64,000 nt of DNA from a virus, in IMG/VR virus record IMGVR_UViG_3300020469_000033, positions 1 to 64,000 of that record; one strand, written 5' to 3'. A program made the translations under genes and the position numbers. The notes beneath the pieces were generated by a model that saw only the letters and a list, made by a program, of their open reading frames with translations, was not told where the DNA came from and made no database searches. This document shows positions 1,411-63,779 of the stretch, piece after piece (the first letter of the stretch is position 1; every line of letters starts with the position of its first letter).

Positions 1411-3012
1411 ATGGCAAATTTTGATTTATCTAAACTAATGGAAGGAAAGAACCCACAAGCTGTAATGTTGAATGAAACAAGACAACTAAAAGGTAAATGG
1501 GAACAAACTGGACTTCTAGAAGGTTTAAATGAAAAAGAGCAAGGCGCAATGTCTGTTCTTTTAGAAAACCAAGCAAAACAATTGCTTGATGAGGCATCTC
1601 AGACTGGGACAGCCGCAAATAGTGAAGAGTGGAGTGGTGTAGCCCTTCCTCTTGTTAGAAGAATCTTTGGTGAGATTGCTTCTAAAGAATTCGTTAGTGT
1701 ACAACCAATGAACTTACCTTCAGGACTTGTATTCTATCTAGATTTCAAATATGGTTCGGAAAATGGTGGAAAACTAAAGCACGAATCTTTATTTGGTAAC
1801 TCAGGTTCATTAGGTTCAGGTAGAACTGGTGAAGCTGCTGGTGGTTTATATGGTAATGGTGCATTTGGATATTCTATCAATGAAGATTCTGTAAGTGTAG
1901 CAACTGGTGCTCAAACTTGGGCTTCTGCTTCACATGCTGATATAGGATTTGATGGTGCATTATCTGCTTCTGTTGAAGTTGGTGATATCCAAAAATTAAC
2001 TATTGCTAAATCTGATATCTCAGCTACTGCTGATGTAGATGCAATTGCATCTTTCGCTGTAAGTGGTACTGATATTAATGGTGCAAACTACTCTCAATTC
2101 AACAAAGTTGATGGTGATAACCTTATATTCTTCGTTGGAACATCTGCTGCTGTAGATGCAAACGCTGTAACTGTTAAGTTTTCTCATATCCCTGCTGATT
2201 ATAACAGAGGTGACTTTGAGCAATCTTCATTTACATCTCCTGGTCCAGCAACTGGTGATGACCTTCAGATTCCTGAAGTAGACCTAGAGTTGAAGTCTGA
2301 AGCAATTGTTGCTAAGACTAGAAAACTAAAGGCTGTGTGGACTCCTGAGTTGGCGCAAGACCTTAACGCTTACCACTCAATCGATGCTGAAGCTGAATTA
2401 ACTTCTATGTTATCTGATTACATCTCATTAGAGATTGATTTAGAAATCTTAGATATGTTAAAATCTAACGCTTTAACTGTTGAATACTGGTCAGCTACAA
2501 TAGGTGAAGAGTACAATGGTTCATCTTGGTCAGCTGGTAGTTCTGCTGTTGCTTACCAAAAGAACACTTGGTTCCAAACTTTAGGTACTAAATTAAACAA
2601 AGTATCTAATAAGATTCACCAATTGACTTTAAGAGGTGGAGCTAACTTCGTAGTTGCTTCTCCTGATGTATGTACTATCTTAGAATCAATCCCTGGATTT
2701 AGTGTATCAGCTGATAAAGATGCAATGTCTTTCGCTGCTGGTGTAACTTCAGTAGGTGCGATTGCTAACAGATACACAGTTTACAAAAACCCTTACATGA
2801 CTTCAAATGAAATCTTGTTAGGATTTAGAGGAAGCAACTTCCTAGAAACTGGTGCTGTATATGCTCCGTATGTACCGTTAATCATGACTCCATTAGTGTA
2901 TGACCCTCAAAACTTCACTCCAAGAAGAGGAGTAATGACGAGATACGCTAAGAAGATGGTTAGACCTGAGTACTATGGTAAGATTTTTGTTAAAGATTTA
3001 CAATCTATCTAA
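1411..3012 (+). CDS. gp23: Major capsid protein, gp23-like
   Basis: The 533-residue product forms the capsid shell. The N-terminal segment reads LVRRIFGEIASKEFVSVQPM followed by LPSGLVFYLDFKYG at about residues 87-115, a hallmark of T4-type gp23. The length is close to T4 gp23 (521). Residues 59-61 are Leu-Asp-Glu followed by Ala62, which fits the LxE-Ala cleavage rule of the T4 prohead protease and sits almost where T4 gp23 is cut (after residue 65), so residues 1-61 are a likely propeptide. A Ser/Ala/Gly-rich segment at about 160-270 may be a surface insertion. The start follows an A-rich leader with AAAAAGGAAAAATAAA. A strong terminator follows the gene. Confidence 0.95.
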   Translation: MANFDLSKLMEGKNPQAVMLNETRQLKGKWEQTGLLEGLNEKEQGAMSVLLENQAKQLLDEASQTGTAANSEEWSGVALPLVRRIFGEIASKEFVSVQPMNLPSGLVFYLDFKYGSENGGKLKHESLFGNSGSLGSGRTGEAAGGLYGNGAFGYSINEDSVSVATGAQTWASASHADIGFDGALSASVEVGDIQKLTIAKSDISATADVDAIASFAVSGTDINGANYSQFNKVDGDNLIFFVGTSAAVDANAVTVKFSHIPADYNRGDFEQSSFTSPGPATGDDLQIPEVDLELKSEAIVAKTRKLKAVWTPELAQDLNAYHSIDAEAELTSMLSDYISLEIDLEILDMLKSNALTVEYWSATIGEEYNGSSWSAGSSAVAYQKNTWFQTLGTKLNKVSNKIHQLTLRGGANFVVASPDVCTILESIPGFSVSADKDAMSFAAGVTSVGAIANRYTVYKNPYMTSNEILLGFRGSNFLETGAVYAPYVPLIMTPLVYDPQNFTPRRGVMTRYAKKMVRPEYYGKIFVKDLQSI

Positions 3013-15700: not shown

Positions 15701-18700
15701 TTTGCAGGTCGTTCAATGATTATAACTGATGTTACTGATACAACAATGACTGTTAATGTTGGAGTATCGGCTCCGAATAAATTATTTACACCAACTGATG
15801 TTGATTACAACGCATTGAGTGGTGATATGGTTGTAACTGTTGGACAGCACGGATTAGGAGTAGGAAGAAGTGTAGTATTAGAAAACGAATCTTTTGCTTT
15901 CACTTGTGACCAAGATGGTGATACATCTGTTCACTCTTACCCAAGATTAGGTTCAGACCCATATGCGGAACAATCAATTGTAATAAATTCAGTTGGAACT
16001 ACATCCCATACTATAACTAATGCACCTTATGATGCATCTACTGGTGATGTTACTATAACAATCACAGGACATGGATTTAGTAATGGAGATTATATCAAAC
16101 TTTCTGATAATTCTCTAACCTATACTTGTATATTAGATGGTAATAGTGTTGAGAAATCATATCCAAGACCTGGTTATGATTACCCATCTGGAAGATGGTT
16201 AGAAATTTCTAATGTAACAACTAATACTTTCGATATTAACATTGGTTCATCATCTTACACATCAGCTCATACTTTTGTATCAGCTACAACAAATGGTTTA
16301 GAAAGACAAACTGGAACATTTACAATAAACGTTGGAGATGGTGGAAGTGCAAGTGGCTCAATACATACATTTGTATCAGCATCAATAAACGCTGTAAAAC
16401 ATTTACCACAATCAGTTCATACTTTTGTATCAGCTTCTAATGGAGCAGTAAAACACCTACCTCAGGCAGGTCATACTTTTGTTAGAACTCAAAATAACTC
16501 AATAAGTGTTTTATCTCAATTAATAACTAAAACTCCATCTAAAGTTTCTAATAGTGATGGAAATATAAAAGTAACATCATTTAATTCAGTATCTTCATCA
16601 ATTGCATTGAGTGGTTCATATCAAACTGAAGTTAGTGAATCATATGATATTGTAACTGGAATTATAAAAACAGGTATTGAATCATTCACACCTAAAACAG
16701 CAACTTATGACCCTGCTAATGGTGATTTCTTAATGACTGTACCTAAACATAATTTACATAGTGGTGATAGTATCTATCTAAAACCTGAATCATTTGTATT
16801 CACTTGTGATATGGATGGAAATAGAACTGAGCACAAACTTCCATCAATTGGACAACCTGCTTATGATAATAGATTAACAATTAAATCAACAACATCAGAT
16901 ACTATAACTGTAAACGTTGGTAAATCGGGTCCAAATGTAGAATACAATCCATCAACTGCATCTTATGACCCAGCAACTGGGGAATTTGTTGTAACTGTAG
17001 CAAGTCATAGTTTAAGTATTGGTGAAGGTGTAGTAATGTCACCTGAATCATTCGCATTTACTTGTGATATGGATAACGACCAATCAGTTAAATCCTACCC
17101 AAGAGTTGGTATTGACCCGTATTCAGTACGTTCACTTCCTCTTACGGCTGTAACTGATACTACAATGACATTTAATGTAGGAGTATCAGGTCCGAATAAA
17201 TATTTCACACCTGTATCTGCTTCTTACAATTCTCTAAGTGGAGATATGACTCTAACTGTTACTGAATCATTCGGATTGGGTGTTGGTAGAAGTGTGGTGT
17301 TAGAAAACGAATCATTTGCATTCACTTGTGATATGGATAGTAACGTAACTACTCATTCTTATCCAAGAAGTGGTTCTGACCCATACGCTGAGCAATCAAT
17401 AAAAATCACTTCAGTTGGAACTACTTCTCATAGTGTAACCGATGCACCATATGATTCTGCAACTGGTGATGTAACTATTACAATAGCTAACCACAATTTC
17501 AATAATGGAGATTACATAAAATTAGATGATAATTCTCTAACTTATACTTGTGTATTAGATAAAAATATAACTACAAAATCTTACCCAAGACCTAATTACG
17601 ATTATCCAAGTGGAAGATGGTTAGAAATTTCAAATGTAACAACTAACACATTTGATATCAATATAGGTTCTTCACCATATGTAGGTTCACATACATTTGT
17701 ATCAGCAACTACTAATGGATTGAAGAGACAAGATGGAACGTTTACAATTAATGTAGGAGATGGTGGAAGTGCTTCTGGTTCATTACATACATTCGTATCA
17801 GCATCCAATAGAGCAGTTAAACATGAACCTCAATCAGTTCATACTTTTGTATCAGCTTCCAATGGGGCATTGAAACATTTACCTCAATCAGCTCATACAT
17901 TTATTAGAACTCAACGAGATTCAGTAAGTACTTTACCTATATTAACTGAAAATATTGAAGGATTAATTAAAATTAATGATACATCTCAATTTACTTCTTC
18001 ACTAAGTGGTAGTGAAGTTGAATCAGCATTTGTAACTCGTAGTGTAGGGTTTATTAATGATATTATTAGATTCGGAACCGATGATACACCATTTGCATTA
18101 GCTAAGTGGTTTGATGATACATTAGATACTCCACAACAACTAACAACTGGTTCTTATGTAACTGCTAGTGGTACTTATGTAACTGATACTGAATTTGGTA
18201 TTGTAAGTTCATCATTTGGAGAAATTATTAATATCATAGAAAATGGTACAGGTTCATTTACTCCAACAACAGCAACTTATGACCCATCAAATGGAAACTT
18301 TGTAGTTACTATTCCAAATCATACTTTGGATATTGGAGATGAAATTTATATAAGACCAGAATCGTTTACATTTACTTGTACGATGGATGGGAACAGAACT
18401 GAACACAAATTACCTTCAGTTGGACAACCTGCTTATACTAATAAATTAGAGATAACAGCAAAAACTACTGATACTATAACTGTAAATGTAGGAGCATCGG
18501 ATCCTGATATTGAATGGACTCCAACTAATGCAACTTATGACCCTGCTAATGGTGATTTCGTAATTACAACTGGAACTCACACATTAAGTGTTGGAGAAGG
18601 TATAGTATTAAGTACTGGTTCATTTGCATTTACTTGTGATATGGATAACAACCAATCAACTAAATCTTATCCTAGATTTGGAATTGACCCATTCGCTGGA

Positions 18701-21700
18701 CGTTCAATGAAACTTACTTCGGTAACTTCAAATACAATGACGGTAAATGTAGGTATATCAGGTCCTAATAAATACTTTACACCAACTACTGCATCATATG
18801 ATGCTTTAAGTGGTGATATGACTCTAACTGTTACTGAATCATTTGGTTTAGGAGTAGGAAGAAGTGTAGTATTAGAAAATGAATCTTTTGCGTTCACTTG
18901 TGACCAAGATGGAGATGCTACAACTCACTCTTATCCAAGAAGTGGTTCTGACCCATACGCTGAACAATCAATTGTGATTACTTCGGTAGGTACAACATCG
19001 CATACTCCAACAAACGCTCCATACAACTCAGTAACAGGTGTAGTAACACTAACAATCGCCAATCACGGATTTAGTAATGGTGATTATGTTAAAGTTGCTG
19101 ATAACGCATTAACTTATACTTGTGTATTAGATGATAATACAACTACTAAATCATATCCAAGACCTGGTTATGATTACCCATCTGGAAGATGGCTAGAAAT
19201 TTCTAATGTAACTACGAATACATTTAATATTAATATTGGTGCATCATCATATATAGGAGAACACAAATTTATATCAGCTGCAGCAAATGGTATTGAGAGA
19301 CAAACTGGTACATTTACAATAAATGTAGGTGATGGTGGAAGCGCTTCAGGTTCATTACATACATTCGTATCAGCTTCAGCAAACGCTGTTAAACATGAAC
19401 CTCAATCATTACATACATTTGTATCTGCATCTAAAGGAGCAGTTAAACATTTACCTCAGGCAGGTCATACTTTTGTTAGAACTGAAAATAACTCAATAAG
19501 TATTTTACCAAAATTAGTAACTAATGCTGAAAACAATATTAAAGTAACTTCAGCAAATCAGTTTACTTCTTCTATTGTAGGTTCATCAATTGAAATTAAT
19601 AAAGTAAATACATCAGTTGGTATAATTGAAAATATATTACAAAATGGATTGGGTGTTAAACCAAACGTTGTTAAAAATAACTCTGATGTTGATAACTTAA
19701 TTAAAGTTACTGACGCAGTTCAATTTACATCTGAATCATTTGGAGATAGATTACAACAAAGATTAATTTCATCATCAATTGCAATTGTAACTAATATTGT
19801 TAAAAATGGAACTGGTTCATTACCAACTGTTGTTGAGTATGGAGCTCCATCAGAATCACCAACAACAATTGCAGCATATAACTTATTAAAAGAAAATATT
19901 GGATTTATTCAAAGTGAATCAATTGCTTATTTATCATCTTCTTGGTCAACTGCATCATATGATGAAAGTAAGTGTAGTAGAGATATAGGAGGAATTATAA
20001 GTGGGGCAGCTGAAGATATGTTGTATAACGCAAATTCTGCATCTATATTCAATGGTAAATTCTACTATGATTTCCCATCTCAGGCACAAGGTGCACAATT
20101 ACAACAAACTTTAGATGGTATTAATTATGCTGGTAGATTAGCAGAAAGTATTGTAAGAGGATATACGTTCCAAACTGCATCCGCAGTAGTTAGTGGTTCT
20201 TATGAATTGATTAGAAATAATAGAGAATTTATTCAAAATGAAACAATTGAATTCTTATCATCTTCGTGGGATGGATTTACTTATAATGAAATAACTTGTA
20301 AAAGAGATATTACTCATATTATAGATGCAGTTTCTACTGATTTATTATATGGTGGAAATGAAAGAAGTGTGAATGCTGGAGATTATTATTACAGATTCCC
20401 ATCAGCAGCTATTAGTGGTGGTGTACCAAATGAAAATAGACAAAAAGACCCAACTGTAACTGCTATTGATTATGTACAAAATATAGTAACTGAAATAGTA
20501 AGTGGAGCTGTTTTCCAAACTGCATCAAATGAAGTTGAATTTGTTTATGATACAATTAGAGAAAATAGAGAATTCTTACAAGCTGAAACTGTAGCATTCG
20601 TAAACGCTAAATATCCAAACTTTGAATACAATGAATTAAGTTGTAGTAGAGATACTGGATTCATAATTGATGCTGTTGCTACTGATTTAAGATATGGTGG
20701 AAACCAAAGAGCATTAACTGCTGGTGAATTCTATTATAGATTCCCATCTGAAGCAACTGGTAATCAATTAGATGAAACTACTGATGCATTAATCTATACT
20801 AAAGATTTAATTGAAAAATTAGTTAACAAAGAAACATTATTTGTTCAAACAGGAAGTTTGAATACTGATAATGGAATTAAAGTAACTTCATTCTCACCAG
20901 CAACTGGTAGTAGTATAACTGATGTTACTATTTTTAACACAATTTCATCTTCATTCGCAATTGTATCAGATGCAATAGCTAATGGAAAAGCAGATTCAAC
21001 TCCAACTAACGCAACTTATGACCCATCAAATGGTGAGTTTGTATTAACAATTGAAAGTCATTCTTATACTGAGGGTGAGGGTATATACTTATCACCTGAA
21101 TCGTTCACATTTACTTGTGATATGGATAACAACAAAACTGAAGATAAATTACCTTCAGTTGGACAACCTGCTTACAATAATGAATTAGAAATTCTTTCAA
21201 AAACCAATAATACTATAACTGTTAACGTAGGAGCGTCTGGACCTAATGTAGAATTTAATCCAACAACTGCATCTTATGACCCAGCAACGGGTGAATTCGT
21301 AATGACTGTTGAAAGTCATAGTTTAAGTATTGGTGAAGGTATCATTTTAGATATTGAATCATTTGCTTTCACTTGTGATATGGATAATAATCAATCAGTT
21401 AAATCATATCCAAGAGTTGGTATTGACCCATTCGCTGGACGTTCAATGAAGATAACGGATATTACTGATACTACAATGACTGTAAATGTTGGTATTTCGG
21501 GTCCAAATAAATTCTTTACACCATCGGATGTTGATTACAACGCATTAAGTGGTGATATGATTGTAACTGTTGGACAGCATGGTATAGGTGTTGGTAGAAG
21601 TGTAGTATTAGAAAATGAATCATTCGCATTTACTTGTGACCAAGATGGTGATACATCTGTTCATTCTTATCCAAGAAGTGGTTCTGACCCATACGCTGAA

Positions 21701-38386: not shown

Positions 38387-41300
38387 ATGGAATACGGAGG
38401 AAAGAACCCAAACGGAATCAATCAGGTCAGTCAAAGTTTACTTTCGATTGATGTTCAAGGTGTAGAACAAGCAACTATATCTACATCTTCGGTTGATATC
38501 AATACGTCTTTAAATGTAGATAATAGTGTAACTGCATCTTCTTTTAGTGGTTCTTTCAGAGGAGATGGTTCAGAATTAAATAATATACCAACATCAGCTC
38601 TTACTGGTGATATAGCAAGAATAGCAGAAGGTTCAGCAACCGCATCAGTTGAAAGTGGAACTACATTTGATGTAACTGGTAATACTACAATAACAGGTTC
38701 ATTAAATATAAGTTCAAATGTATCAGCATCAAGATATGATGGTGATGGTAGTGGTTTATATAATGTACCAGCATCAGCATTAGGTGATATCGATAGATTA
38801 AAATCAGGTTCAGCAGAAGCTGTAATTTCTGAAAATAAAGGTTTAAGAATAAACACAGGTACTACAATTGATAAATTTTTAATTGTAACTGGTAGTGGTA
38901 TTTTTAAGAATAATGCACAAATAGATAACGATTTAACAATCGGAAACGATTTATCAGTAGGTGGAACAATAACATCAACTGAATTAATAACAACATTTAT
39001 TTCATCATCAGTAATTTACGCATCGGGTTCGAATGTGTTTGGTGATGAAAGTACTGATTCACATCAATTTACAGGTTCAGTATTAATTAAAGATTCGGTA
39101 GTAATTCCAGTCTTTAGTTCAGAACCATCTGGTGGTGTAGTTGGACAATTATATTATAACTCAACTGATACTAACATATTTAGATACACAGGTTCAGAAT
39201 GGGAACCAGCAGCTGGTACTGCTGGAACATCTGGAACATCTGGAACGTCTGGTACATCTGGAACATCTGGAACTTCTGGAACTTCTGGAACAAGTGGTAC
39301 ATCTGGTTCATCTGGGATAGATGGTACTGATGGTACTTCTGGTAGTAGCGGTTCAAGTGGAAGTAGTGGAACTTCAGGTACATCTGGAACATCTGGCACA
39401 TCTGGTTCTTCTGGTTCTTCTGGTTCATCGGGTTCTTCTGGCTCATCGGGTTCATCTGGAACCGATGGTACTGCAGGAAGTGGAGGTACAAGTGGAAGTT
39501 CTGGTTCATCTGGTTCAAGTGGAACAAGTGCAACAAGTGGCTCATCTGGAAGTAGTGGTTCATCTGGAAGTAGTGGTTCATCTGGAAGTAGTGGTTCATC
39601 TGGTTCTTCTGGTGCAGATGGAGTTGATGGTGTAGATGGTGTAGATGGTGAAGATGGAACAAGTGGTTCGTCTGGGATAAGTGGAACATCTGGTTCAAGT
39701 GGTTCATCTGGAAGTAGTGGTTCTTCAGGTTCATCTGGTTCTTCAGGTGTTGGTGGAGCTCAAGGTACATCTGGTTCATCTGGTTCTTCAGGTTCATCTG
39801 GTTCAAGTGGTTCATCTGGTATAGATGGTACTGATGGTGAAGATGGAACAAGTGGAAGTAGTGGAAGTAGTGGTTCTTCGGGTACATCTGGAACATCTGG
39901 TTCTTCTGGTTTAACTGGAGCTGGTGGTGGTGATGGTACTCCAGGTACTGCTGGTAGTGGAGGAACATCAGGTTCTTCTGGCTCATCAGGTTCATCTGGG
40001 AGTAGTGGAACAAGTGGAACAAGCGGAACAAGTGGAACAAGTGGTTCGAGTGGAGTTGATGGAGCAGCTGGTGTAGTAGGTTCTGATGGTACAAGTGGAA
40101 GTAGTGGTTCTTCAGGTTCTTCTGGAAGTAGTGGTAGTTCTGGTTCTAGTGGTAGTTCTGGTTCAAGTGGTTCAAGTGGAACATCTGGAACAAGTGGTGT
40201 TTCTGGAGCTGAAGGTTCTTCAGGTTCTTCTGGAAGTAGTGGTAGTTCTGGTTCAAGTGGCTCAAGTGGTTCTTCTGGTTCATCGGGTTCATCGGGTTCT
40301 TCTGGAACAAGTGGTACATCTGGAACAAGTGGTACATCTGGAACGTCTGGTACATCTGGAACTTCTGGAACTTCTGGAGAAAGTGGTACAGATGGATTAT
40401 TAGCATTAACAGGTAATACTGATAATGGTGTAATCACACTTAATGGTTCAGCACCAAACGGAACTGTTGAAAGTAATCTTACTTTTGATGGTACAACATT
40501 AAACATAACAGGTAATCTGAATGTAACAGGTACTCAAACAATTGTGAATACCGAAACTATTCAGTTAGCAGATAATATTATAACTCTTAATTCAAACTTT
40601 ACAACTGGTACTCCTTCGGAGGATGGTGGTATTGAGATATTAAGAGGTTCTTCAGCAACTAAAAAATTCTATTGGAGAGAATCAATAGATTCATGGTACG
40701 CTGATGATGATTTAACAGCAACCGGGAACTTAAATGCAAGAGGTGGTACATTAATCTTAGATGAAACGGTTGGAGCAATAACTAAAATTACTAATGAGAA
40801 TAATCTATCGATTTATTCAGACCATTTAGTAAACTTTATTGAAAGTGATGCAAGTAACACAAGAGCAGTATTTGGATTAAATGGAAGTGGTAACTTTACA
40901 TTTGGACAAGGTACATTAAATACATCATATACGATGTATGTTGCTGGTACATTCTACTCAAACACAGTAGATACTGGACAAGGTGCAACTGAGGTTTATT
41001 TAATGAACCAAAATGTTCGTACATCTGATGATGTAACTTTTGATGATGTTACAGTAGGTAGTACTTCAAAGAGTGCAGATTCAGTAGTTCGAGTTCTTGC
41101 AGGTGATTCTAATAAAGCAGGTTTTGAAGCATACGGTAACTCACAAGGTACTGGTTACCTTTATGTAGGACAATCATCAACTTATGGTGGTGGTATTTCT
41201 TACAATGGAGATGGTTCACCTGGATTTATCAATGGTGAAACTTCAGATAGAATTACATTCTTTAATAGAGAAGCTGGTACAAATAATGAAGTATTTAGTT

Positions 41301-44300
41301 ATTCATATAGTGGAACAACCGTAGCTTTCAATGGCACAATAACCGCAGCAAATATTAATACTGGACAAGGTACAACTGAGGTTTATTTAATGAATCAGAA
41401 TGTTCGTACATCAGATTCACCTCAATTTGCTGGACTAAACTTAGGTAATGGTAATTTAAATACTGTTGAAAACATATATTTAGATGATAGAATTTATAGT
41501 CAAGGTGATACCGATACTTATTTACAATTCCATGATGCTAATCAATTTAGAATTGTTACTGGTGGTACAGAAATGTTGGAAGTTAACGATACTTACGTTA
41601 AACTTGGTGCCTCTTTAAATGCAAATAACCAACAACTTCTTAATGTTGAAGATATTGGATTAAATGACCGTATTTTCCACGATGGTGATACTAACACATA
41701 CATTCAATTCCAATCTGCAGATAATTTTAGAGTTGTAACTGGTGGTGGTGAACGATTAGAAATAAATAATAATGAAGTACAAGTAAAAAATAATTTTAGA
41801 GCATATGGTGGTGGTTCAATTGATACATCGCCTGATGGTACAACATTTGCAAATACAATTGGGGGTGGTTCTAATAGTAGAGTAATTAATTTTGAAGGAC
41901 CATCTAACTCAGTATCAACTTGGTACACATCTGGTAATACAGCTTTAGGTGCTATTGACCAAAACTCTTCATATATGAGTATGTGGCAGAACTTAGGTTC
42001 TGGTTGGGCAGAGCAAATGAGAATTTATAGAGGATATGTTCAAGCTAATAACTCATTTAGAGCACCTATTTTCTATGATTCAAATGATACTGCGTATTAT
42101 GTAAACCCAAATGACTTCTCTAATTTTGGTAAATCAAATGGACCTGTAATGCAAATTACTAAAACTGGTTCAGCTCCCGGAAACAATACAACTTTAATAG
42201 TAGAAAATACATACGCAAATCATTCTTGGGGTGTTGTTCAAGAAATAAGAGGGGGTGGTATTTCTGGAACTGATAGACCTGCTTTATTATTCTCATCACC
42301 ACTAACTTCACAAACTTGGACAAGTGGTTATTACCAAACTTCAGATTCTTACGCTATTACATCTAATCGAGGATATAGAAATGGTGGTTGGGGTAGTTGG
42401 AGAATGTTAGTAGACTCAAGTGGTAATGTAGAAGCTGCAGGTTCATCAAGAGCACCAATATTTTATGATTCTAATAATACTGGAACTTATGTAGACCCTA
42501 ATACAACAGGAGTATCTTTTCAAACATTAGGTCAAGTAAGAACTACTAGAGCAGATGGATTTAGAGTTGATAGTGCATCATATGCTAGAATAGATTTGGA
42601 TTCTAATAATAATTGGTCTTATATAAGATTGCAAGATAATGGAGCAGTTTCTTGGGATATTGCATCATATAATGGTGGTAATTTAGAACTAAGACCAGGT
42701 GGAGGTAGTTCAAACAGAACTTATTTCGATAGTAGTGGTAATTCATACTCCGAAACTTCTAAAAGAGCACCAATATTCTATGATTCAAATGATACTGCTT
42801 ATTATGGTAATTTTGCTTCAACTTCTAGATTATATCATGCAGAAAACACATATGGTAGTGAATTCATACATAAAAAACATTCTGGTTCTGATTTTACATC
42901 TGGTACATTAGTACAAACTGATATTACATCAAATACTACAAACGGAGCATCGTTTGTATTAGAAGCAACTGGTAAAAGTTATTCAGCAGACTCACCATTT
43001 AACTTTATGGTACAGGGTTATCTATATGCTAACACTATTATCAACCATTCTGGTTTACATTTAGGTAAAGCTGGATTCTCTACAATGAAGGTATTTGATA
43101 ATGGTGGTACACTTGCATTCTGGTGGCCAAGAGTATCTTATTGGAATTCATTTGAAGTAAGAGTAAGGGATGCTGGTGGAAGTGCAAGAAATAGAGTAAC
43201 AAATATTAGTAATTCAACCGAACCTTCATCTTCTAAGAAGGTAACGGTAACAATGAGAGCTGTACCAATTGGTGGAACTACAACAAACGCACAAGATATG
43301 TACGCACCTCGTTATTACGATAGTGATAACACTGCTTACTATGGTGATTTTGCATCAACATCTGTAATGAATAATGTTCAAGTAAATGGACAATTAGATA
43401 TTAGAGGATATATTGATGCTGATTCTAATGACCCTATTGAGATTTACGCCAATATGGAATTCCAAGACAACCAAACTTTAAGATTTGGTAATGGTTCGGA
43501 TTTAAGAATTTGGCATGATGGGTCAAACCACTATTTTAAAAATTATAATCATGGTGAAGGTGATTTCTACTTCCAAGGTGAAGATAATGAAGGAACAAAC
43601 CATGCACTTTTTTACTTAATTACTGATACTTCTCGTCCTTATCTACAATTATTCGAAGATGGAGCAGAAAGGTTAAGAACTATATCAACAGGTGTTAGGG
43701 TTTATGGTGAATATCAAATTAATGATTCAAATACTCAGTTAGAAGAAGGTGGTGGTAATTCTCTAAGAATGAGAACCAACTATGGATATGTTGATATGGG
43801 GCCAATGAATAGTTCATACGCACATTTCCAAACCGATAGAGGATTATTCTACTTCAATAGACAATTAAGAACTGATGGTGGTATTTCGGCATACGATACT
43901 AATGATTATGCATACTATCCAATTTATTATGATTTCAATAATACAGGATATTATGTAAAACCATCATCTGATACTAGATTACATCATCTTTATGTTGAAG
44001 GTGGACATGGTGATACTCGAATTCAATTACACTACAATAATGGTAATGATATTTACGATGCTCATTTAACACTTTGGGCATCTGAGCCAGGTATCACTTA
44101 TGATAACACAGGTATTGGTGGTAACATTAATTATAGTGGACAATATTATGGTAGACAGACTAATAGTAACCCTTATGGTGCATATGTAAGATTCGATGTA
44201 AATAGTGGACACGTTGAAGCATGGACAACAACTGGTAGTGCTGGTAGTTCTGGTGGACAAGGTACAAGACAATGGTATGTAAATCAAGCTGGTGATGCAT

Positions 44301-47300
44301 ATACAAGAAGTTCAAATAGAGCACCAATTTTCTATGATGTAAATAACACTGGATTCTACGCAAATCCAGCATCTCAATCTAATTTTAATACTCTTACTTT
44401 AACAGGTAATAGAATTGGATTCATCAACACATCATTTGATGCTGAAATTAGAGTATCTGATGCTAATCCAAATGGAACTGGTGCAGAATTTGTATTTTAT
44501 GGTGATACTGGTGCTAATAATGCACAACTTACGGCAGAAGTAGGTAACTTTACTGCAAATGTAAGAACACCTATAATGTATGATTCCAATAATACAGGAT
44601 ATTATTCAGACCCTAATGGTACATCTAGATTAAATTCAATAAACGCAAATGAAATAATTGTTGATGGATTTGAAATAGCAGATACCGCATCAAGAAGTGT
44701 AAGTGCAGGACAATGGGTAACTATTGCTACGGGAAGTGGTAGACAATATGCTACCTTCAATGTGTGGGATACTAATAGTAGTAGACATGGTTCGATGTCA
44801 TTTACTGCTGGTATTTCTTATGGTCAACAAGGTACAATTACTATGTTAGGTAAATCTTGGTATAGTTCTAATGGTATTTTTAATAACATTAGAATTAGAA
44901 AAAGTGGTACATATGATACTCATTACTTACAAATTTATATAAGAACTTCTGGTACATTATATTACGCAATAACAAATAACTTCCAATCTCCTGGTTGGTC
45001 ATTAACAACATCAGGAACAGGAAATCCTGGTTCAACAACAGCATGTGAAGTAGTACCTGATTCATATCCAGGTCTTGCTACTAACAGAAACATTTATAGT
45101 GGTCAAAGTGTATATGCTGGAGAATACATGTACGCACAAAGATTTTATGATTCCAATAGTAATAGTTTCTACTTAGACCCAGCCTCTACATCTTATTTAA
45201 ATGATGTAAGAGCAGATATTTACTATGATAGAAATAATACATCATACTATGGTAACTTTGCTAGTACATCGTACTTTAATGATATTCGACCAAATATCAT
45301 GTATGATAGAAATGATACTGGATTCTATGTAAACCCTCGAAATAATTCTAGAATGAGTGGTTTACGATTGAGTGGTATTGATAATCAAGCTTCTGGTGAT
45401 GATGCACTATTATGGTTAGATAAACCAAATAATAATGACTGGGGTATTATCTTAACTGGTGATGATGATTATGGTATTGACCTTAGAATGGCATCAACTA
45501 ACAACTATGCAATAAGAGTGTTAAGAGGTGGTAGTGAAATGTTTAGAGTAAACTCTGATTACGCATATCACTACTCAGATATGAGGTCTCCAATCTTTTA
45601 TGATTCATCAAATACTGGATATTATGTAGACCCTGCATCTTTCTCAAATCTTAATAGTGGTTTAAGAGCAACTGAAATCTATGCAAGAAACTGGTTCAGA
45701 AATGATAATAGTGGTGAAGGTTTATATAACCAATCAACTGGAATGCATTGGTATTCTGATTCATCATCTCGTTGGAGAGCATATTCTGGTTCTTCTACAT
45801 CACAAATTTTATTCACAACATCTGGTAACAATGCTAGAGGATATGTTTACGCAACTAACTCAAATGAAATTGGTTTCTTAGACCAAGGTGGAAGTTGGGC
45901 AATCAGACACCAAAATGATAATGGTACTTATTTCTATACTGATGGTAGTTCATTAGAATTTAGTGTTGGTAGAGATACAGTAGGTGGTAACTATGGTACT
46001 GTTAGAACTCATTCTACTAGAGGTGGATGGGGTGGATACTCTATTAATGGTGGATGGGTGTTTATGCACGACCATTCAAACGCAGCTGGTATCTATAATG
46101 ATTATGAAAATGAGTGGGCTATATTAATGTATAGAAACTCATATGTGGAACTAAGATACAATGGTACTTGGGAACAAAGAACTCAAAGTGGATATGTACA
46201 AGCGCGAGGTTCTTATAGAGCACCACTTTTCTATGATTCAAATGATACTGGATATTATGTAGACCCTAATTCAACTGGACAAGCTGCAAGATTTAGAGGA
46301 AGAATTTATATTGGACCAAACAATAGTTGGGGAAGATACTTACAAGTCGGTGGTAATGGTAGAGAATTCGTAAACAATTCATCGATTGCATCGGTAGTAA
46401 CTACAAATGGTAACTTACACTTAGATTCAGCTAGTGGATATACTACATATATTAACTACTATGATGGTGGAACAACAATATTTGGTACTGGTTCAAATAA
46501 TGAAGTAGCGAGATTAAACTCAGATTACTTTAGACATAATTCTGATGTAAGAAGTCCACTTTTCTATGATAATAACAACACTGGTTATTATGGTGATTTT
46601 GCATCTACAACAATTACCAATGTAACAAGAGCAAATTACCTTAGTAATAGATATGATGTATCTACAGACCATCAATTTGGTATGTATTTCTCATCTGGTA
46701 GAAGTACTGCATACGCTATTTATAGAGAAGGTGGTGGATGGTCTTATAGATATCCTGATTTAAGAATCGCATTCCATACTGGTATTAAGTTTGGAGCAAA
46801 CGCATCTTACAATGGTATGCGTTTCTACAACGATTACAATATGGCAACGCAGGTCATGTCTGTTAACAACTCTACTGACCCATTAGGTACAAATAACGTA
46901 TATGTTAACTACAACCTACAAGCAGGTTCTTCATTAAGAGCACCAATTATTTATGATTCAAATAATACTGGTTATTATTTCGATGGTGCATCTGCACACT
47001 CTACGAGATTCGAAGGTGTGAGTAATAGAACGATGGCTTACATAGGTCAGCCGGGTCATACAAGAAATAGTGGTGAATATTATAGAGCTAGACCTCGTCA
47101 AACCAGTGATACTAACTATTGGACTGGTGCATTTGGATGGGGTAGACAAGATATGAACGTTGTTTCAACTTGGGGTTCTGGTTTCATTGATTCTTGGAGT
47201 AATCCAGGTAACCAACCTTCAGGTACATCTCACTGGGTAGGAATGCAGGCATTCCATTATCGTAGTTCGAACACTGGTGGTTACGGATGGCAGATGGTTG

Positions 47301-48208
47301 GTGGACCAATTACTAACTTGAGATTCAGAAGTTCTTGGAGTGGATGGAGAAGTTGGAGAACTATTCCTGTTCTTGATGAGAATAGTAGTAATGGTGGTTC
47401 AATGTATGCTGGTAGATATTACGATTCAAATAATACTGGATACTATGTAGACCCAGCATCAACATCAAATCAAAGTAGTATATATGTAAACAACTGGTTT
47501 AGAGCTAGAAGTTCATCAGGTCTTTACTTCCAAGATAGAGGATGTGGATTACGTGCTGTAAGAGATGAAGGTGGACAGTATGGTACTGTTGCAACTTATG
47601 GTTCGGATGTAGGTGGATACGAAGGATGGTCTATTGGTGGTAGAATTGTGTTTATGCACGATATGAGTTCTGCTAATGGTATTTACAATGATGTAAATAA
47701 CGAATGGCACATGCTTAACTATCGAAACGATAGAGTAAGATTATACTATAATGGTGCTGAAAAAATAAGAACTGAATCATATGGTGCATATGTTATTGGT
47801 TCAATGCGTTCATCATCTGATATAATCGCTTACTATTCTGATATGAGATTGAAGGATAAGGAAGGTGATATTGAAAATGCTCTTGATAAAATTGGTAAAT
47901 TAAATGGTTTCTATTATAGAAATAATAAAGAAGCTAATGCAATTGGATATGAAGGAACTGAACTACAAATAGGTGTATCCGCACAAGATGTTAAAGAAGT
48001 TCTTCCTGAGATTGTTAAACCAGCACCTCTTGCAGAACAATTGGGGTATGATTATATGACAATTCAATATGATAAGTTAACTCCTTTATTAATTAACGCA
48101 GTGAATGAACAAAACGATATAGTTAAATCACAAAAAGAAGAAATTGAATATTTAAAATCAGAACTCTCAGAAATGAAAGAGATGATGAAAGAATTATTAA
48201 ACAAATAA
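38387..48208 (+). CDS. Giant tail fibre with collagen-like tract and S74 chaperone, 3273 aa
   Basis: The N-terminal 270 residues carry fibre strands shared with the gene at 25496 (SFRGDGSELNNIPTSAL). Residues about 277-670 are a Gly-Xaa-Ser triplet tract. A VTGTQTIVNTETIQLADNII head-like segment follows. From about residue 1225 to 3025, fifteen copies of (A/S)P(I/L)(F/Y)YDSNNTGYYVDP alternate with variable domains, a pattern common in cyanophage fibres. The C-terminal 123 residues are an intramolecular chaperone of endosialidase (peptidase S74) with Ser3151 and Lys3156 as the expected self-cleavage dyad, closing in a coiled coil. This should be a homotrimeric receptor-binding fibre that sheds its chaperone after folding. 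The start follows a GAGG-type site. Confidence 0.93.
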   Translation: MEYGGKNPNGINQVSQSLLSIDVQGVEQATISTSSVDINTSLNVDNSVTASSFSGSFRGDGSELNNIPTSALTGDIARIAEGSATASVESGTTFDVTGNTTITGSLNISSNVSASRYDGDGSGLYNVPASALGDIDRLKSGSAEAVISENKGLRINTGTTIDKFLIVTGSGIFKNNAQIDNDLTIGNDLSVGGTITSTELITTFISSSVIYASGSNVFGDESTDSHQFTGSVLIKDSVVIPVFSSEPSGGVVGQLYYNSTDTNIFRYTGSEWEPAAGTAGTSGTSGTSGTSGTSGTSGTSGTSGTSGSSGIDGTDGTSGSSGSSGSSGTSGTSGTSGTSGSSGSSGSSGSSGSSGSSGTDGTAGSGGTSGSSGSSGSSGTSATSGSSGSSGSSGSSGSSGSSGSSGSSGADGVDGVDGVDGEDGTSGSSGISGTSGSSGSSGSSGSSGSSGSSGVGGAQGTSGSSGSSGSSGSSGSSGIDGTDGEDGTSGSSGSSGSSGTSGTSGSSGLTGAGGGDGTPGTAGSGGTSGSSGSSGSSGSSGTSGTSGTSGTSGSSGVDGAAGVVGSDGTSGSSGSSGSSGSSGSSGSSGSSGSSGSSGTSGTSGVSGAEGSSGSSGSSGSSGSSGSSGSSGSSGSSGSSGTSGTSGTSGTSGTSGTSGTSGTSGESGTDGLLALTGNTDNGVITLNGSAPNGTVESNLTFDGTTLNITGNLNVTGTQTIVNTETIQLADNIITLNSNFTTGTPSEDGGIEILRGSSATKKFYWRESIDSWYADDDLTATGNLNARGGTLILDETVGAITKITNENNLSIYSDHLVNFIESDASNTRAVFGLNGSGNFTFGQGTLNTSYTMYVAGTFYSNTVDTGQGATEVYLMNQNVRTSDDVTFDDVTVGSTSKSADSVVRVLAGDSNKAGFEAYGNSQGTGYLYVGQSSTYGGGISYNGDGSPGFINGETSDRITFFNREAGTNNEVFSYSYSGTTVAFNGTITAANINTGQGTTEVYLMNQNVRTSDSPQFAGLNLGNGNLNTVENIYLDDRIYSQGDTDTYLQFHDANQFRIVTGGTEMLEVNDTYVKLGASLNANNQQLLNVEDIGLNDRIFHDGDTNTYIQFQSADNFRVVTGGGERLEINNNEVQVKNNFRAYGGGSIDTSPDGTTFANTIGGGSNSRVINFEGPSNSVSTWYTSGNTALGAIDQNSSYMSMWQNLGSGWAEQMRIYRGYVQANNSFRAPIFYDSNDTAYYVNPNDFSNFGKSNGPVMQITKTGSAPGNNTTLIVENTYANHSWGVVQEIRGGGISGTDRPALLFSSPLTSQTWTSGYYQTSDSYAITSNRGYRNGGWGSWRMLVDSSGNVEAAGSSRAPIFYDSNNTGTYVDPNTTGVSFQTLGQVRTTRADGFRVDSASYARIDLDSNNNWSYIRLQDNGAVSWDIASYNGGNLELRPGGGSSNRTYFDSSGNSYSETSKRAPIFYDSNDTAYYGNFASTSRLYHAENTYGSEFIHKKHSGSDFTSGTLVQTDITSNTTNGASFVLEATGKSYSADSPFNFMVQGYLYANTIINHSGLHLGKAGFSTMKVFDNGGTLAFWWPRVSYWNSFEVRVRDAGGSARNRVTNISNSTEPSSSKKVTVTMRAVPIGGTTTNAQDMYAPRYYDSDNTAYYGDFASTSVMNNVQVNGQLDIRGYIDADSNDPIEIYANMEFQDNQTLRFGNGSDLRIWHDGSNHYFKNYNHGEGDFYFQGEDNEGTNHALFYLITDTSRPYLQLFEDGAERLRTISTGVRVYGEYQINDSNTQLEEGGGNSLRMRTNYGYVDMGPMNSSYAHFQTDRGLFYFNRQLRTDGGISAYDTNDYAYYPIYYDFNNTGYYVKPSSDTRLHHLYVEGGHGDTRIQLHYNNGNDIYDAHLTLWASEPGITYDNTGIGGNINYSGQYYGRQTNSNPYGAYVRFDVNSGHVEAWTTTGSAGSSGGQGTRQWYVNQAGDAYTRSSNRAPIFYDVNNTGFYANPASQSNFNTLTLTGNRIGFINTSFDAEIRVSDANPNGTGAEFVFYGDTGANNAQLTAEVGNFTANVRTPIMYDSNNTGYYSDPNGTSRLNSINANEIIVDGFEIADTASRSVSAGQWVTIATGSGRQYATFNVWDTNSSRHGSMSFTAGISYGQQGTITMLGKSWYSSNGIFNNIRIRKSGTYDTHYLQIYIRTSGTLYYAITNNFQSPGWSLTTSGTGNPGSTTACEVVPDSYPGLATNRNIYSGQSVYAGEYMYAQRFYDSNSNSFYLDPASTSYLNDVRADIYYDRNNTSYYGNFASTSYFNDIRPNIMYDRNDTGFYVNPRNNSRMSGLRLSGIDNQASGDDALLWLDKPNNNDWGIILTGDDDYGIDLRMASTNNYAIRVLRGGSEMFRVNSDYAYHYSDMRSPIFYDSSNTGYYVDPASFSNLNSGLRATEIYARNWFRNDNSGEGLYNQSTGMHWYSDSSSRWRAYSGSSTSQILFTTSGNNARGYVYATNSNEIGFLDQGGSWAIRHQNDNGTYFYTDGSSLEFSVGRDTVGGNYGTVRTHSTRGGWGGYSINGGWVFMHDHSNAAGIYNDYENEWAILMYRNSYVELRYNGTWEQRTQSGYVQARGSYRAPLFYDSNDTGYYVDPNSTGQAARFRGRIYIGPNNSWGRYLQVGGNGREFVNNSSIASVVTTNGNLHLDSASGYTTYINYYDGGTTIFGTGSNNEVARLNSDYFRHNSDVRSPLFYDNNNTGYYGDFASTTITNVTRANYLSNRYDVSTDHQFGMYFSSGRSTAYAIYREGGGWSYRYPDLRIAFHTGIKFGANASYNGMRFYNDYNMATQVMSVNNSTDPLGTNNVYVNYNLQAGSSLRAPIIYDSNNTGYYFDGASAHSTRFEGVSNRTMAYIGQPGHTRNSGEYYRARPRQTSDTNYWTGAFGWGRQDMNVVSTWGSGFIDSWSNPGNQPSGTSHWVGMQAFHYRSSNTGGYGWQMVGGPITNLRFRSSWSGWRSWRTIPVLDENSSNGGSMYAGRYYDSNNTGYYVDPASTSNQSSIYVNNWFRARSSSGLYFQDRGCGLRAVRDEGGQYGTVATYGSDVGGYEGWSIGGRIVFMHDMSSANGIYNDVNNEWHMLNYRNDRVRLYYNGAEKIRTESYGAYVIGSMRSSSDIIAYYSDMRLKDKEGDIENALDKIGKLNGFYYRNNKEANAIGYEGTELQIGVSAQDVKEVLPEIVKPAPLAEQLGYDYMTIQYDKLTPLLINAVNEQNDIVKSQKEEIEYLKSELSEMKEMMKELLNK
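39215..40393 (+). repeat. Collagen-like Gly-Xaa-Ser tract 3
   Basis: About 394 residues of Gly triplets, richer in GSS than the tracts in the gene at 25496, with GVDGVDGVDGEDG and GIDGTDG acidic islands in place of the GTFFG interruptions. Confidence 0.9.
42060..47460 (+). repeat. YDSNNTGYYVDP fibre repeats (15 copies)
   Basis: Fifteen copies of a 14-16 residue motif at irregular spacing; five copies end in GNF/GDF instead of VDP/VNP. The segments between them differ greatly, suggesting exchangeable domains framed by constant hinges. Confidence 0.9.
47837..48205 (+). other. Peptidase S74 autoprocessing chaperone domain
   Basis: Starts at Ser3151 in SDMRLK; Lys3156 is at +5, the spacing of the Ser-Lys dyad in endosialidase chaperones. 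Cleavage before Ser3151 would free a 123-residue fragment whose C-terminus is a Glu/Lys-rich coiled coil. Confidence 0.85.
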
Positions 48209-60183: not shown

Positions 60184-61467
60184 ATGATTGTAGTAGAATC
60201 TAATAAAGAGAAAGAGAATTTTATGCAAATGTGGGAAAACAATCCCTCAATTGTAATTCCTATATGGTCTGATTTGGATAAACATCCAATGAACAATGAA
60301 CTTGCCTTCTTATTCGTAAGAGTGGGAAAAACTGACTTTATTCTCATATATAATCATATTGATGGTAAATCCCACCATTTAGACCTTTCAACCTCAACAC
60401 AACCAAAATGGGTATGGAATAAGAAAGGCTTATTACAAACTGATACAAATATACAAAATATTTTTGATATATCCAACTATTACTTCTTTGAAAAGAATCA
60501 AACTATACCTTATGAGGTACAAAATCAATCGTTTATCTCACATTATATCCGAATGGGTATAAGAGATGGTTTAGGAAAGATAGCACCTATAATGAAATGG
60601 GGAGAGTATTTAAAATCATTTGTTGATAATATAAGTAGTACTATTCCCCCTCCCGATTTATCTCCTAAAAGTTGGGTTGATAATACGATGATTCCTCTAT
60701 TATCTCAGATTGAACGATATGGGGTTCGGGTCGATGGAGGAAAATTTTTTGATAGATATCCACAAGCTACTAAACATTTAAACAACAATATCGTATATAC
60801 CGAATATAACCCATATACTATTACATCCCGTCCTTCCAACCGATTTGGGGGAATCAACTTCTCTGCTTTAAATAAAAAGGATGGAACGAGAGAAGTATTT
60901 ATTCCCAAAGATGGGCACATATTCCTACAAATGGATTATGATGCCTATCACCCCCGAATCATAGGTAAGTTGATTGATTACGAATTACCCGATACTTCGG
61001 TTCACCAATGGTTAGCGGACCAATATGGTGTTGATTATGGTGAATCTAAAGGAATTACATTCCAACTCCTTTATGGTGGGATACCCGAAGAATTCGATTC
61101 TATTCCTTATTATAAGAAGGTTAGAGAGTACATCGATGAAATGTGGGGTAACGCATCCAAAAAAGGTTATGTATCGACTTACAATCGAAATATACCCCTT
61201 AGTTCGATAGAAGGTTTGAATCCACAAAAAGTATTCAACTATTTACTACAAGCAACTGAAACTGAGTTAAATATGGATACAATGAGGAAAGTGTTGGAGT
61301 TTATTGAACAAACCGACATTGAGTTAAGTTTATACACTTATGATTCATTCTTATTTTCTTTTCCATTGGATACTCCTAAAGAACAAGCCCTTAAATTAAA
61401 AGAAATTGTAGAAAGTAATGGGTTTCCTATAAATGCTAGTTGGGGAACGGATTACTCAAAACTTTAA
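60184..61467 (+). CDS. Short family-A DNA polymerase-like protein
   Basis: The 427-residue product shows the three palm/finger motifs of family A polymerases in order. Motif A is QMDYDAYHPR with Asp251; motif B is KGITFQLLYGG with Lys289, Phe293 and Tyr297; motif C is YTYDSFLF with Asp387. These match E. coli Pol I Asp705, Lys758, Phe762, Tyr766 and Asp882. Departures are: His256 where Pol I has the Glu710 steric gate, Tyr285 in place of Arg754, and YDS instead of HDE in motif C. No clear exonuclease DxE motif is seen in the first 150 residues, which may be a vestige of that domain (VIPIWSDLDKHP). The protein is far shorter than T7 gp5 (704). It may be a replicative, repair or regulatory polymerase. 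Confidence 0.75.
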   Translation: MIVVESNKEKENFMQMWENNPSIVIPIWSDLDKHPMNNELAFLFVRVGKTDFILIYNHIDGKSHHLDLSTSTQPKWVWNKKGLLQTDTNIQNIFDISNYYFFEKNQTIPYEVQNQSFISHYIRMGIRDGLGKIAPIMKWGEYLKSFVDNISSTIPPPDLSPKSWVDNTMIPLLSQIERYGVRVDGGKFFDRYPQATKHLNNNIVYTEYNPYTITSRPSNRFGGINFSALNKKDGTREVFIPKDGHIFLQMDYDAYHPRIIGKLIDYELPDTSVHQWLADQYGVDYGESKGITFQLLYGGIPEEFDSIPYYKKVREYIDEMWGNASKKGYVSTYNRNIPLSSIEGLNPQKVFNYLLQATETELNMDTMRKVLEFIEQTDIELSLYTYDSFLFSFPLDTPKEQALKLKEIVESNGFPINASWGTDYSKL

Positions 61468-61494: not shown

Positions 61495-63318
61495 ATGAAC
61501 AAAAACGAATTAATCAAAGAATTATTATCTGAGTTATCTTATCGTTCTAACGAAGGATACCCTATGTTAGATAATAGAGAACAAATATCTATTCTAGCTG
61601 AGATATTAGATGAGTGGGGATATACCAAAATCAAAAACGAATTAATTGAAAATCTTTTAGAAGCAGATGATAAAAAATTTACTGCTACAAAGAAAGATAC
61701 AAACCAAACAGTAGCATTTGATAGTGAAGAAGCAAGAGATGCAGCGATTGAAAAGGGAACTCATACTAAGAAAGAAGATTCTGAAGAAGATGATTCTAAA
61801 AAAAAGAAAAAAGATATGTTTTCCTCAGAAGCTGGATATGAAGCTCCTGATTTAAAAAAGGATGATGATATTGATACAACTCCCAAATCAAAAAATTCAA
61901 AACTAAAAAAATTACCAAAAGAAGAATCAATTAAAATAGACCACAATTCAGCTGATAAGTCTCTTATGATGACTAAGACAGAAGCTAAAGCTCAAGCTCA
62001 ACGAACAAAAGCTGGTGAAACACAAAATGTTGGAGCTGGGACACCTGAATCAAGAGCTGGTGAAGCTATGGTTCATAAAGGTTTAAGATTATTACAAAGT
62101 GGTAAATCATTGGAAGAAATAGAAGAGGAGTTTTCTAAAATAGTAAATTCAGATGACCATATATTAAATTCTAAAACAGGTAAAAAATGGGTATCATCTA
62201 CATTATCTAGTTTAAAAAAGATAGATGAGGTTATTGGGATAGAAAATATTCAAGATGTTGCATGGGATACTGATGCTGGTAGAATAGCTATTGGTGTAGA
62301 CCCTAATTTAGAAACATCATCGGATATGTTTGTTAGAACTAAAGATGGTAAAAATATTGGGTTATCTCTTAAAAAAGATGGAAATGTATTCTTAAATAAT
62401 GGTGGTTGGGCCAAACAATCTAAATTATTATTAGGTGATTTAAAATCACAAATGGGTAATGAATCTCATAAAAAATTATCTGAAGCAATGTCAATTAAAG
62501 CATATGAGGATGATTTAACTGATAGGTTTAAATCTATCAGTAGTACTATTACAGTAGATACTATTAAAGAAGATTTTGAAAGATTAAAGAATGAACCTGA
62601 AATATTGAAAAAATATTTTGGTGGTTCAAATCAACCGATATACTTTAGAGAAATGGAAAATCCAGAAGTATTACATAGAAATATGGTTAATGGTAATTTG
62701 AGTAAGTATCAACAAAAAGTTTTAGCTAAGTTAACTCAAGCTTATCATAAAGAGGAATATAATCATTTAAGAAAATCTGAAGATGCATTAACTGAAAGAA
62801 CATTTAATATATTGAACTCTGATAAAGAAGCCAAAGAAGGTATGAATAAACATATCATAAAATCAATGCACATTACAGAAACACTGGGATTAAATAAAAC
62901 AGTCAAAGAAGGTGGCGTAGATGGGTTCCAAACAATGTATGGTATTGAACCAGATGGTGCTGTATTAAATGAACAAACATTGATTACTTTATTTGGTTCT
63001 AATTTCCAAAATATATTACAAGAGCAAATAAAAGAGGTTAGAGATGGTAAAAAATCAGTTAAAGAATTAGAAAAAGCTATTTCTGATTCAATAGAAATTG
63101 ATTATGAATCTGGTCAAATTTTATTTAAACATGAATCTCAAAAAAAGTTCCCATTATTTAAATTACAAGGTAGAGCTAGAGGTATAGGAGCATCTCCTAC
63201 AATGGAAATGTTACAAACTCCATTTATGGCCCATGCACTAAAGATGGGTACATTCAATACCGATGAGTGGGATACAAAATCATTAGAAAGATTTAAAAAA
63301 GATATAGAGTTTATTTAA
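61495..63318 (+). CDS. Unknown 607-aa protein with nuclease-like segment
   Basis: Residues 1-55 form a helical domain (NKNELIKELLSELSYRSNEG, then EILDEWGYTKIKNELIENLL) that I have seen at the start of several marine T4-like phage proteins. A KFTATKKDTNQTVAFDSEEA motif and a highly charged Lys/Glu/Asp linker follow, to about residue 160. At about 277-305 the sequence DMFVRTKDGKNIGLSLKKDG, followed by VFLNNGGW, resembles the Asp...(S/E)xK core of a PD-(D/E)XK nuclease. The remaining 300 residues are helical and unrecognised. Function is uncertain: an internal head protein, a nuclease or a replication-associated protein are possible. Confidence 0.6.
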   Translation: MNKNELIKELLSELSYRSNEGYPMLDNREQISILAEILDEWGYTKIKNELIENLLEADDKKFTATKKDTNQTVAFDSEEARDAAIEKGTHTKKEDSEEDDSKKKKKDMFSSEAGYEAPDLKKDDDIDTTPKSKNSKLKKLPKEESIKIDHNSADKSLMMTKTEAKAQAQRTKAGETQNVGAGTPESRAGEAMVHKGLRLLQSGKSLEEIEEEFSKIVNSDDHILNSKTGKKWVSSTLSSLKKIDEVIGIENIQDVAWDTDAGRIAIGVDPNLETSSDMFVRTKDGKNIGLSLKKDGNVFLNNGGWAKQSKLLLGDLKSQMGNESHKKLSEAMSIKAYEDDLTDRFKSISSTITVDTIKEDFERLKNEPEILKKYFGGSNQPIYFREMENPEVLHRNMVNGNLSKYQQKVLAKLTQAYHKEEYNHLRKSEDALTERTFNILNSDKEAKEGMNKHIIKSMHITETLGLNKTVKEGGVDGFQTMYGIEPDGAVLNEQTLITLFGSNFQNILQEQIKEVRDGKKSVKELEKAISDSIEIDYESGQILFKHESQKKFPLFKLQGRARGIGASPTMEMLQTPFMAHALKMGTFNTDEWDTKSLERFKKDIEFI

Positions 63319-63377: not shown

Positions 63378-63779
63378 ATGAAAACACAATTATTGTGTAC
63401 ATTTACTTCAAAGGATGGGTTACAAAAGACTCTGCAGGATATCAGAGAGACTTATGTGATAGTGTATAACTATATCTATATCTTACAGAATAAGTCAAAC
63501 TTAGATGAACTTTACGTTACCTATAATATTAATACGGAGTTCAAACCACCACAACCTTTAGAAGATACAATACTAATACACAGAAAAAAAGAATCAAATA
63601 CGTTATATACTATTAACGCATTAAACCAGTTAGTGAGAGAGGAAAATGGTGGTGTATTAGATAAGACATTTGTAATAGATTGGCAAAAATTTAGAAATTC
63701 AATAATACTTACAAATACTGAAGGTACTAAACGTATTCAAACTCGTATTTTTGAGGTTATCGAATTTAATCAAAAATAA
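63378..63779 (+). CDS. Conserved small phage protein of unknown function, 133 aa
   Basis: The 133-residue product has the pattern CTFTSKDGLQKTLQDIRETY, then YIYILQNKSNLDELYVTYNI, ILIHRKKESNTLYTINALNQ and FVIDWQKFRNSIIL. I recognise it as a family present in marine and Bacteroidota-infecting T4-like phages, often near replication genes, without a known function. The HRKKExNTLYTINAL segment is the most conserved part. It has its own promoter-like motif and is followed 10 nt later by the last, partial gene. Confidence 0.75.
   Translation: MKTQLLCTFTSKDGLQKTLQDIRETYVIVYNYIYILQNKSNLDELYVTYNINTEFKPPQPLEDTILIHRKKESNTLYTINALNQLVREENGGVLDKTFVIDWQKFRNSIILTNTEGTKRIQTRIFEVIEFNQK

Follow-up and report, generated by a model that had tools for sequence, protein, structure and literature searches.

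The window analyzed here, the first 64 kb of a 75,252-base virus record, comes from a virus that infects marine bacteria. On inspection, the record is T4-like, with capsid, scaffold, sheath, and baseplate proteins, and with ssb-, uvsX-, and helicase-like proteins downstream. The 607-aa open reading frame singled out in a preliminary description of this DNA does lie at 61495–63318 on the + strand; we divide its product into an N-terminal module (N-module), a linker, and a cargo (Table 1). The PF00476 match of the gene immediately upstream is below the curated cut-off; its 427-aa product matches only part of the DNA polymerase A family and could be a subunit of a split polymerase like the one with annotated subunits A and B in phage S-CREM2. 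Elsewhere in the window we noted a 5931-aa open reading frame among the structural genes (6773–24568), and a 3273-aa protein (38387–48208) that a long SSG/TSG repeat run and numerous 'RAPIFYDSNNTGYYVDP'-like repeats mark, by eye, as a tail fibre. Further along the record, a 510-aa protein (L011:2756–4288; record 65756–67288) resembles, by eye, a flavin-dependent tryptophan halogenase.

Table 1. Features of the locus, of its flanking genes, and of the capsid gene in the window.
Feature	Position	Strand	Basis
607-aa protein: N-module, linker, and predicted nuclease cargo	61495..63318	+	ORF list; relatives from contig scans
N-module, residues 1-58, three predicted helices (3-17, 28-40, 44-59)	61495..61668	+	AlphaFold model; common to proteins with unrelated cargo
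Candidate prohead-protease site L54-L55-E56/A57 (slash, cut point)	61654..61665	+	Sequence; cleavage rule from PMC9026906
Linker mini-domain, residues 61-93, predicted strand-strand-helix	61675..61773	+	AlphaFold model
Charged low-confidence linker, residues 94-133	61774..61893	+	AlphaFold, pLDDT <50
Cargo, residues 140-607, predicted PD-(D/E)XK-type nuclease	61912..63315	+	Conservation, AlphaFold, and structural alignment
E190, candidate helix-A acid	62062..62064	+	Kept in 36/36 rows with a letter
D277, candidate metal ligand	62323..62325	+	Kept in 37/37 rows
S291-L292-K293, candidate motif III (SxK)	62365..62373	+	S and K kept in 37/37 rows
DNA polymerase A-like palm protein, conserved left slot border, upstream	60184..61467	+	PF00476 E 4.3e-07, synteny
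133-aa protein, conserved right slot border, downstream	63378..63779	+	Synteny
Major capsid protein, candidate site L59-D60-E61/A62	1411..3012	+	Sequence; gp23 identity by inspection

The preliminary description had likened residues 1–60 to the starts of other virion-region proteins. Inside the record this did not hold, as the N-module occurs there once; across phages it did, with the module heading many different proteins. It was present in 196 of the 204 loci examined (the window counted, as L010), exactly once in each. Searches for the first 58 residues alone, made with two sub-alignments, brought in 74 loci and the best 80 of 189 relatives. Pfam gave no hit to the N-module that would mark it as a MuF domain. 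The same description had taken NLLEAD, which occupies residues 53–58, for a prohead-protease site. According to PMC9026906, the T4 gp21 prohead protease follows an L/I-x-E rule, which the LLE/A of the window protein fits (here and below, a slash marks the cut point), and the implied propeptide of 56 residues falls within the 7–65 range given there. The phage's own capsid protein carries a matching candidate, LDE/A, at residues 59–62. Among 135 distinct N-modules, 86 contain [LI]xE, whereas shuffling the same 16 residues 500 times gave 55.9 on average and at most 74; the excess is weak because the rows are related. Across these modules, the candidate site is partly conserved, not universal.

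Next, we considered the cargo. The segment DMFVRTKDGKNIGLSLKK, residues 277–294, had been read as the Asp...SxK core of a PD-(D/E)XK enzyme. Two scans of uncultured viral contigs yielded relatives at nine and then 48 loci; no relatives were found in bacterial or archaeal contigs, and tblastn with three family members against named phages gave no match. In alignment A2, which comprises 37 rows with identities down to 26%, D277, S291, and K293 were invariant throughout, as were E190, W257, and D258 in all 36 rows with a letter, and this conservation argues that the Asp...SxK motif is not a chance string. The helix acid E190, D277, and the motif III lysine K293 occur in PD-(D/E)XK order, and Ser replaces the second acid; the motif first noticed is hence real and conserved, but a variant, D...SxK, and not the canonical (D/E)xK. 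HinP1I and MspI, as far as is known, also lack the usual second acid (QxK, NxK). The window protein had no significant match in Pfam, PHROG, NCBIfam, PADLOC, or PDB sequences; the PD-(D/E)XK superfamily is known for families without sequence-profile matches.

An AlphaFold model built with A2 (mean pLDDT 83.8, pTM 0.70) shows three helices within residues 1–59 and a strand-strand-helix piece at 62–86. In the cargo, modelled with confidence after the low-confidence linker, E190 lies within a helix, D277 just before strand 278–282, and S291–K293 on the next strand (287–293). Foldseek found no match to this model in the PDB at E ≤ 0.001. When Foldseek's best chains were re-aligned with VIA, HinP1I ranked first (Z 7.7 over 213 residues, rmsd 4.6), followed in rows 2–7 by ACE1 (5.8), MspI (5.7), ACE1 (5.3), and AdnA (4.8, 4.4, 4.4). 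Each of these seven matches is weak singly, and a Z of 7.7 is in the common range for models without a clear match, so the evidence for the fold is that four families, all of which we take to be PD-(D/E)XK nucleases, top one list while the right residues are conserved. A nuclease fold of the cargo is thus supported by prediction. Regarding the nuclease core of the preliminary description, family searches by HMM recognized none, and structure prediction pointed, through weak matches, to PD-(D/E)XK enzymes as the top neighbours of a model with an invariant E190/D277/SxK set.

We then compared the surroundings of the gene across loci. Since either the module or the window's protein had served to recruit these loci, the synteny counts are conditional on that: a DNA_pol_A-like neighbour lies upstream in 174 of 196 loci, and a homologue of the 63378 gene lies downstream in 168 of 170 complete loci, covering every cargo class but that of a Flavobacterium phage. 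The two right-border exceptions are one class 0 locus (classes are described below) and this Flavobacterium phage, whose module protein instead has terminase, portal, protease, and capsid genes nearby. The first aligned base of the right-hand gene was at, or no more than 108 bases from, the cargo stop codon in 166 of the 168 loci, and 184 and 372 bases away in the others. There is therefore no room for an immunity gene between the two, and an adjacent cognate immunity gene on the downstream side is absent between the cargo and the right-border gene.

Comparing pairs of loci at the DNA level located the exchange. L098 and L103 share 98.98% identity over −76..+413 relative to the gene start and 99.36% over the 2187 bp that begin at the stop codon, and the cargos between are unrelated. 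For L019 and L088, the corresponding values are 96.9% (to base 383) and 93.0% (stop codon onward). All seven of the seven pairs examined show this pattern, with differing identities, and the right-hand break of the swapped block is the stop codon. The swap breakpoints, together with 18 cargo classes, reveal a constant N-terminal domain joined to exchanged C-terminal domains. The locus is a polymorphic cassette of which the window protein represents one allele, with a swap architecture in a fixed slot. Metagenome misassembly is an unlikely cause of the cargo classes, which recur in up to 89 contigs.

The 18 classes were obtained at the BLAST level from 134 of 135 distinct complete proteins, one having been dropped before cargo clustering because its cargo was shorter than 150 residues. 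They contain 66, 15, 13, 8, 6, 5, 4, 4, 3, and 2 members, plus eight singles, and the window protein belongs to the largest. Profile comparison merged classes {0,1,4}, {3,15}, and {2,13} at probability >70, leaving 14 groups. Every one of the nine multi-member non-HNH classes has a D with S-x-K 8–25 residues further on, each conserved in ≥90% of rows. This count was made after the pattern had been noticed and says little about classes with only two to four sequences. PDB comparison of the class 1 cargo model (pLDDT 83.6) retrieved no nuclease (best Z 4.3). Its top viral match, A0A6J5M8Y9, is also that of the window model, and this supports a kinship between classes 0 and 1. Judged by their residues, classes 3 and 15 are HNH nucleases: H118, N135, and N144 are invariant in 12 rows that include cyanophage relatives, Cas9 HNH chains are matched weakly (E 0.03–0.07), and Pfam HNH matches two of the 12 members of the set (best E 0.0052). 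Class 8 weakly matches the PADLOC model PD-T7-3 (E 5e-06). In a huge phage, the protein in the same slot (L052) has the module and an acidic tail, without a recognisable nuclease.

Two further arrangements were noted. A 1576-aa form (L042:4722–9449, and also L048) begins with the N-module and ends with a window-type nuclease; its middle part, ParB/Srx-like by eye (DGHHRWAA), matches phrog_2859 (E 1.2e-19), a family of unknown function, and the protein has a second linker copy. In Flavobacterium phage immuto (QQO92110; L051:11995–13056), the N-module precedes a different nuclease-like pattern (GKGE...GDV...IEIK).

Packaging, cleavage, injection, and target of the window protein are what we infer from these data and from relatives of the cargo; packaging into the head is proposed on the basis of the LxE site, of T4-like leaders on cargo relatives, and of a sister cargo domain found in virions. 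Regarding the leaders, a window-type nuclease (L009) has a short T4-like one, MKSFKSLFLSE/D, and HNH proteins of cyanophages carry others (..LLSFLSE/AAD in ACG-2014f, ..YQLYE/AEL in S-CRM01). Regarding virions, PMC10665884 lists gp12 of Synechococcus phage S-CREM2 as a virion protein, with 28 unique peptides by mass spectrometry, places both gp12 and gp14 among 52 virion proteins, and gives its authors' view that gp12 is possibly encapsulated. The HNH profile of classes 3 and 15 matches gp12 (30.7 bits in a single-sequence search). Moreover, a linker profile made from module proteins alone matches gp14 (E 0.0004) and, weakly, gp12 (E 0.025), which are its only matches at E ≤ 1 among 1036 S-CREM2 ORFs. 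Linker types were gathered by hand-written regular expressions, the matching type comprising 10 segments and the two smallest types (four segments each) being left out of the search; the window protein's own linker differs from the type in these virion proteins.

Nuclease cargo in a phage head has precedent. As reported in PMC9026906, fusion to IPIII or to its targeting sequence lets EcoRI and staphylococcal nuclease be packaged and delivered by T4, and packaged staphylococcal nuclease digests the packaged DNA once calcium is added from outside. The calcium result implies that, as long as its metal is missing, a nuclease carried in the head can leave the phage's own genome intact.

Upstream of the window's N-module and capsid genes there is no T4 late promoter consensus. 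The word TATTTATA, picked post hoc from enriched words, occurs 14 times in the record, nine times within 70 bases before structural-side genes (61495 and eight others, 9/30) and before 0/14 replication-side genes over the same distance; its reverse complement never falls within 70 bases before structural-side genes. It is possibly a late promoter of the window phage. Among relatives, only 8 of 128 N-module genes are preceded by it, compared with 44 of 97 ssb genes, and we set it aside as evidence.

Collectively, these results lead us to propose, with a probability of roughly 0.55, a polymorphic effector gene of marine T4-like phages, whose module packages an interchangeable nuclease that is injected with the DNA. 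The constant N-terminal module (about 56–58 residues) would most likely bring the protein into the prohead core, where the prohead protease may remove it at LLE/A, as in T4 internal proteins. The cargo, a putative PD-(D/E)XK-type nuclease with a candidate active site of E190, D277, and S291-x-K293, would be injected with the phage DNA and would cut nucleic acid in the newly infected cell, with host DNA, a resident element, or a competing phage as possible targets. Recombination between the module/linker and the stop codon would swap the cargo, both flanking genes staying in place. More tentatively, at slightly less than even odds, the locus may be a single polymorphic weapon slot, in which a new virion-targeting module is combined with interchangeable injected nucleases that recombination exchanges under an arms race against the defences of hosts or against rival phages. 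That the nucleases of such a weapon slot comprise several D-SxK lineages as well as HNH enzymes is a proposition that we hold just as cautiously.

The slot adjoins the polymerase-like gene and ssb/uvsX, which makes an intracellular role in replication or on host DNA the main rival. The protein would then be a non-packaged nuclease for phage replication, recombination, or host-DNA breakdown, its N-module docking onto a replisome partner, and the fixed position beside the DNA_pol_A-like gene, with ssb and uvsX downstream, fits this. We nevertheless consider such a role unlikely: swappable, unrelated cargo would be unusual for a replication enzyme, the huge-phage protein in this slot has the module yet no recognisable nuclease, the Flavobacterium phage has its module protein near terminase, portal, protease, and capsid genes, and cargo relatives bear T4-like leaders. 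A nuclease that completes heads or trims DNA ends in the manner of T4 gp4 would suit a predicted nuclease in a T4-like phage with baseplate genes not far away. Yet in S-CREM2 an annotated head completion nuclease, gp205, exists separately from the virion HNH protein, and a housekeeping step is not expected to tolerate exchange between HNH and D-SxK enzymes, so that we regard this role as very improbable.

Only a little more credence, and still a small one, goes to the cargos being selfish homing-type endonucleases that invade the slot and spread themselves. HNH is a common homing fold, and exchange is exact and at one site. Nonetheless, the cargo sits in frame behind the same module, the module-to-stop stretch is replaced and not inserted, the cargo-less huge phage is the single candidate for an empty site, and most classes are not HNH. 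Least probable of all is that the protein has a nuclease-like fold but no catalytic activity and serves in DNA binding or as a structural component; Ser at the position of the usual second acid and the lack of a recognised nuclease family would agree with it, but D277, K293, and E190 are invariant down to 26–30% identity, and the HNH sister cargos keep their H-N-N residues.

If the proposal of a packaged and injected effector is right, T4-like phages possess polymorphic toxins of their own kind, in which a portable module tags proteins for delivery. The slot would also supply a range of uncharacterised nucleases, their exchange being legible at the DNA level, a sequence handle to predict injected proteins of uncultured phages, and a direct test of whether phages use injected nucleases to compete or to beat defence. 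A limited literature search found no earlier description of the module or the slot by title or abstract.

In concept, the slot comes close to MuF polymorphic toxins and polyvalent proteins, with delivery like that of T4 internal proteins. Among enzymes, the type II restriction enzymes HinP1I and MspI are among the best structural neighbours of the window model; the window cargo has no detectable sequence similarity to them, and its catalytic pattern is D...SxK. S-CREM2 gp12, annotated as a CRISPR-associated endonuclease Cas9/Csn1, has the HNH domain of classes 3 and 15 and a similar linker and is found in virions, whereas this cyanophage protein has a different leader, and its fold differs from that of the window's cargo. 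T4 IPI–III and Alt, which carry a capsid targeting sequence, resemble the window protein in having an N-terminal leader that ends at L/I-x-E in a T4-like phage. They are packaged, injected effectors, which for the window protein is a proposal. By contrast with their leaders of 10–19 residues, the module here is about 57 residues long and predicted to be folded, and the cargo is a predicted nuclease, exchanged between unrelated classes.

MuF polymorphic toxins, as described in PMC5576092, likewise combine a constant phage N-domain with variable C-terminal effectors and are proposed to be delivered with DNA. They are reported there from temperate phages, mainly of Firmicutes, whereas the slot here is in T4-like phages, has an apparently different N-domain, and has flanks and breakpoints that are visible at the DNA level. 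Unlike typical polymorphic toxins, MuF toxins included, the cargo here leaves no room for an immunity gene before the next gene. Lastly, polyvalent proteins are, according to PMC5512222, large multidomain phage proteins encoded near late genes and thought to be injected; the long L042 form is similar, whereas a single cargo in one fixed slot is the norm here.
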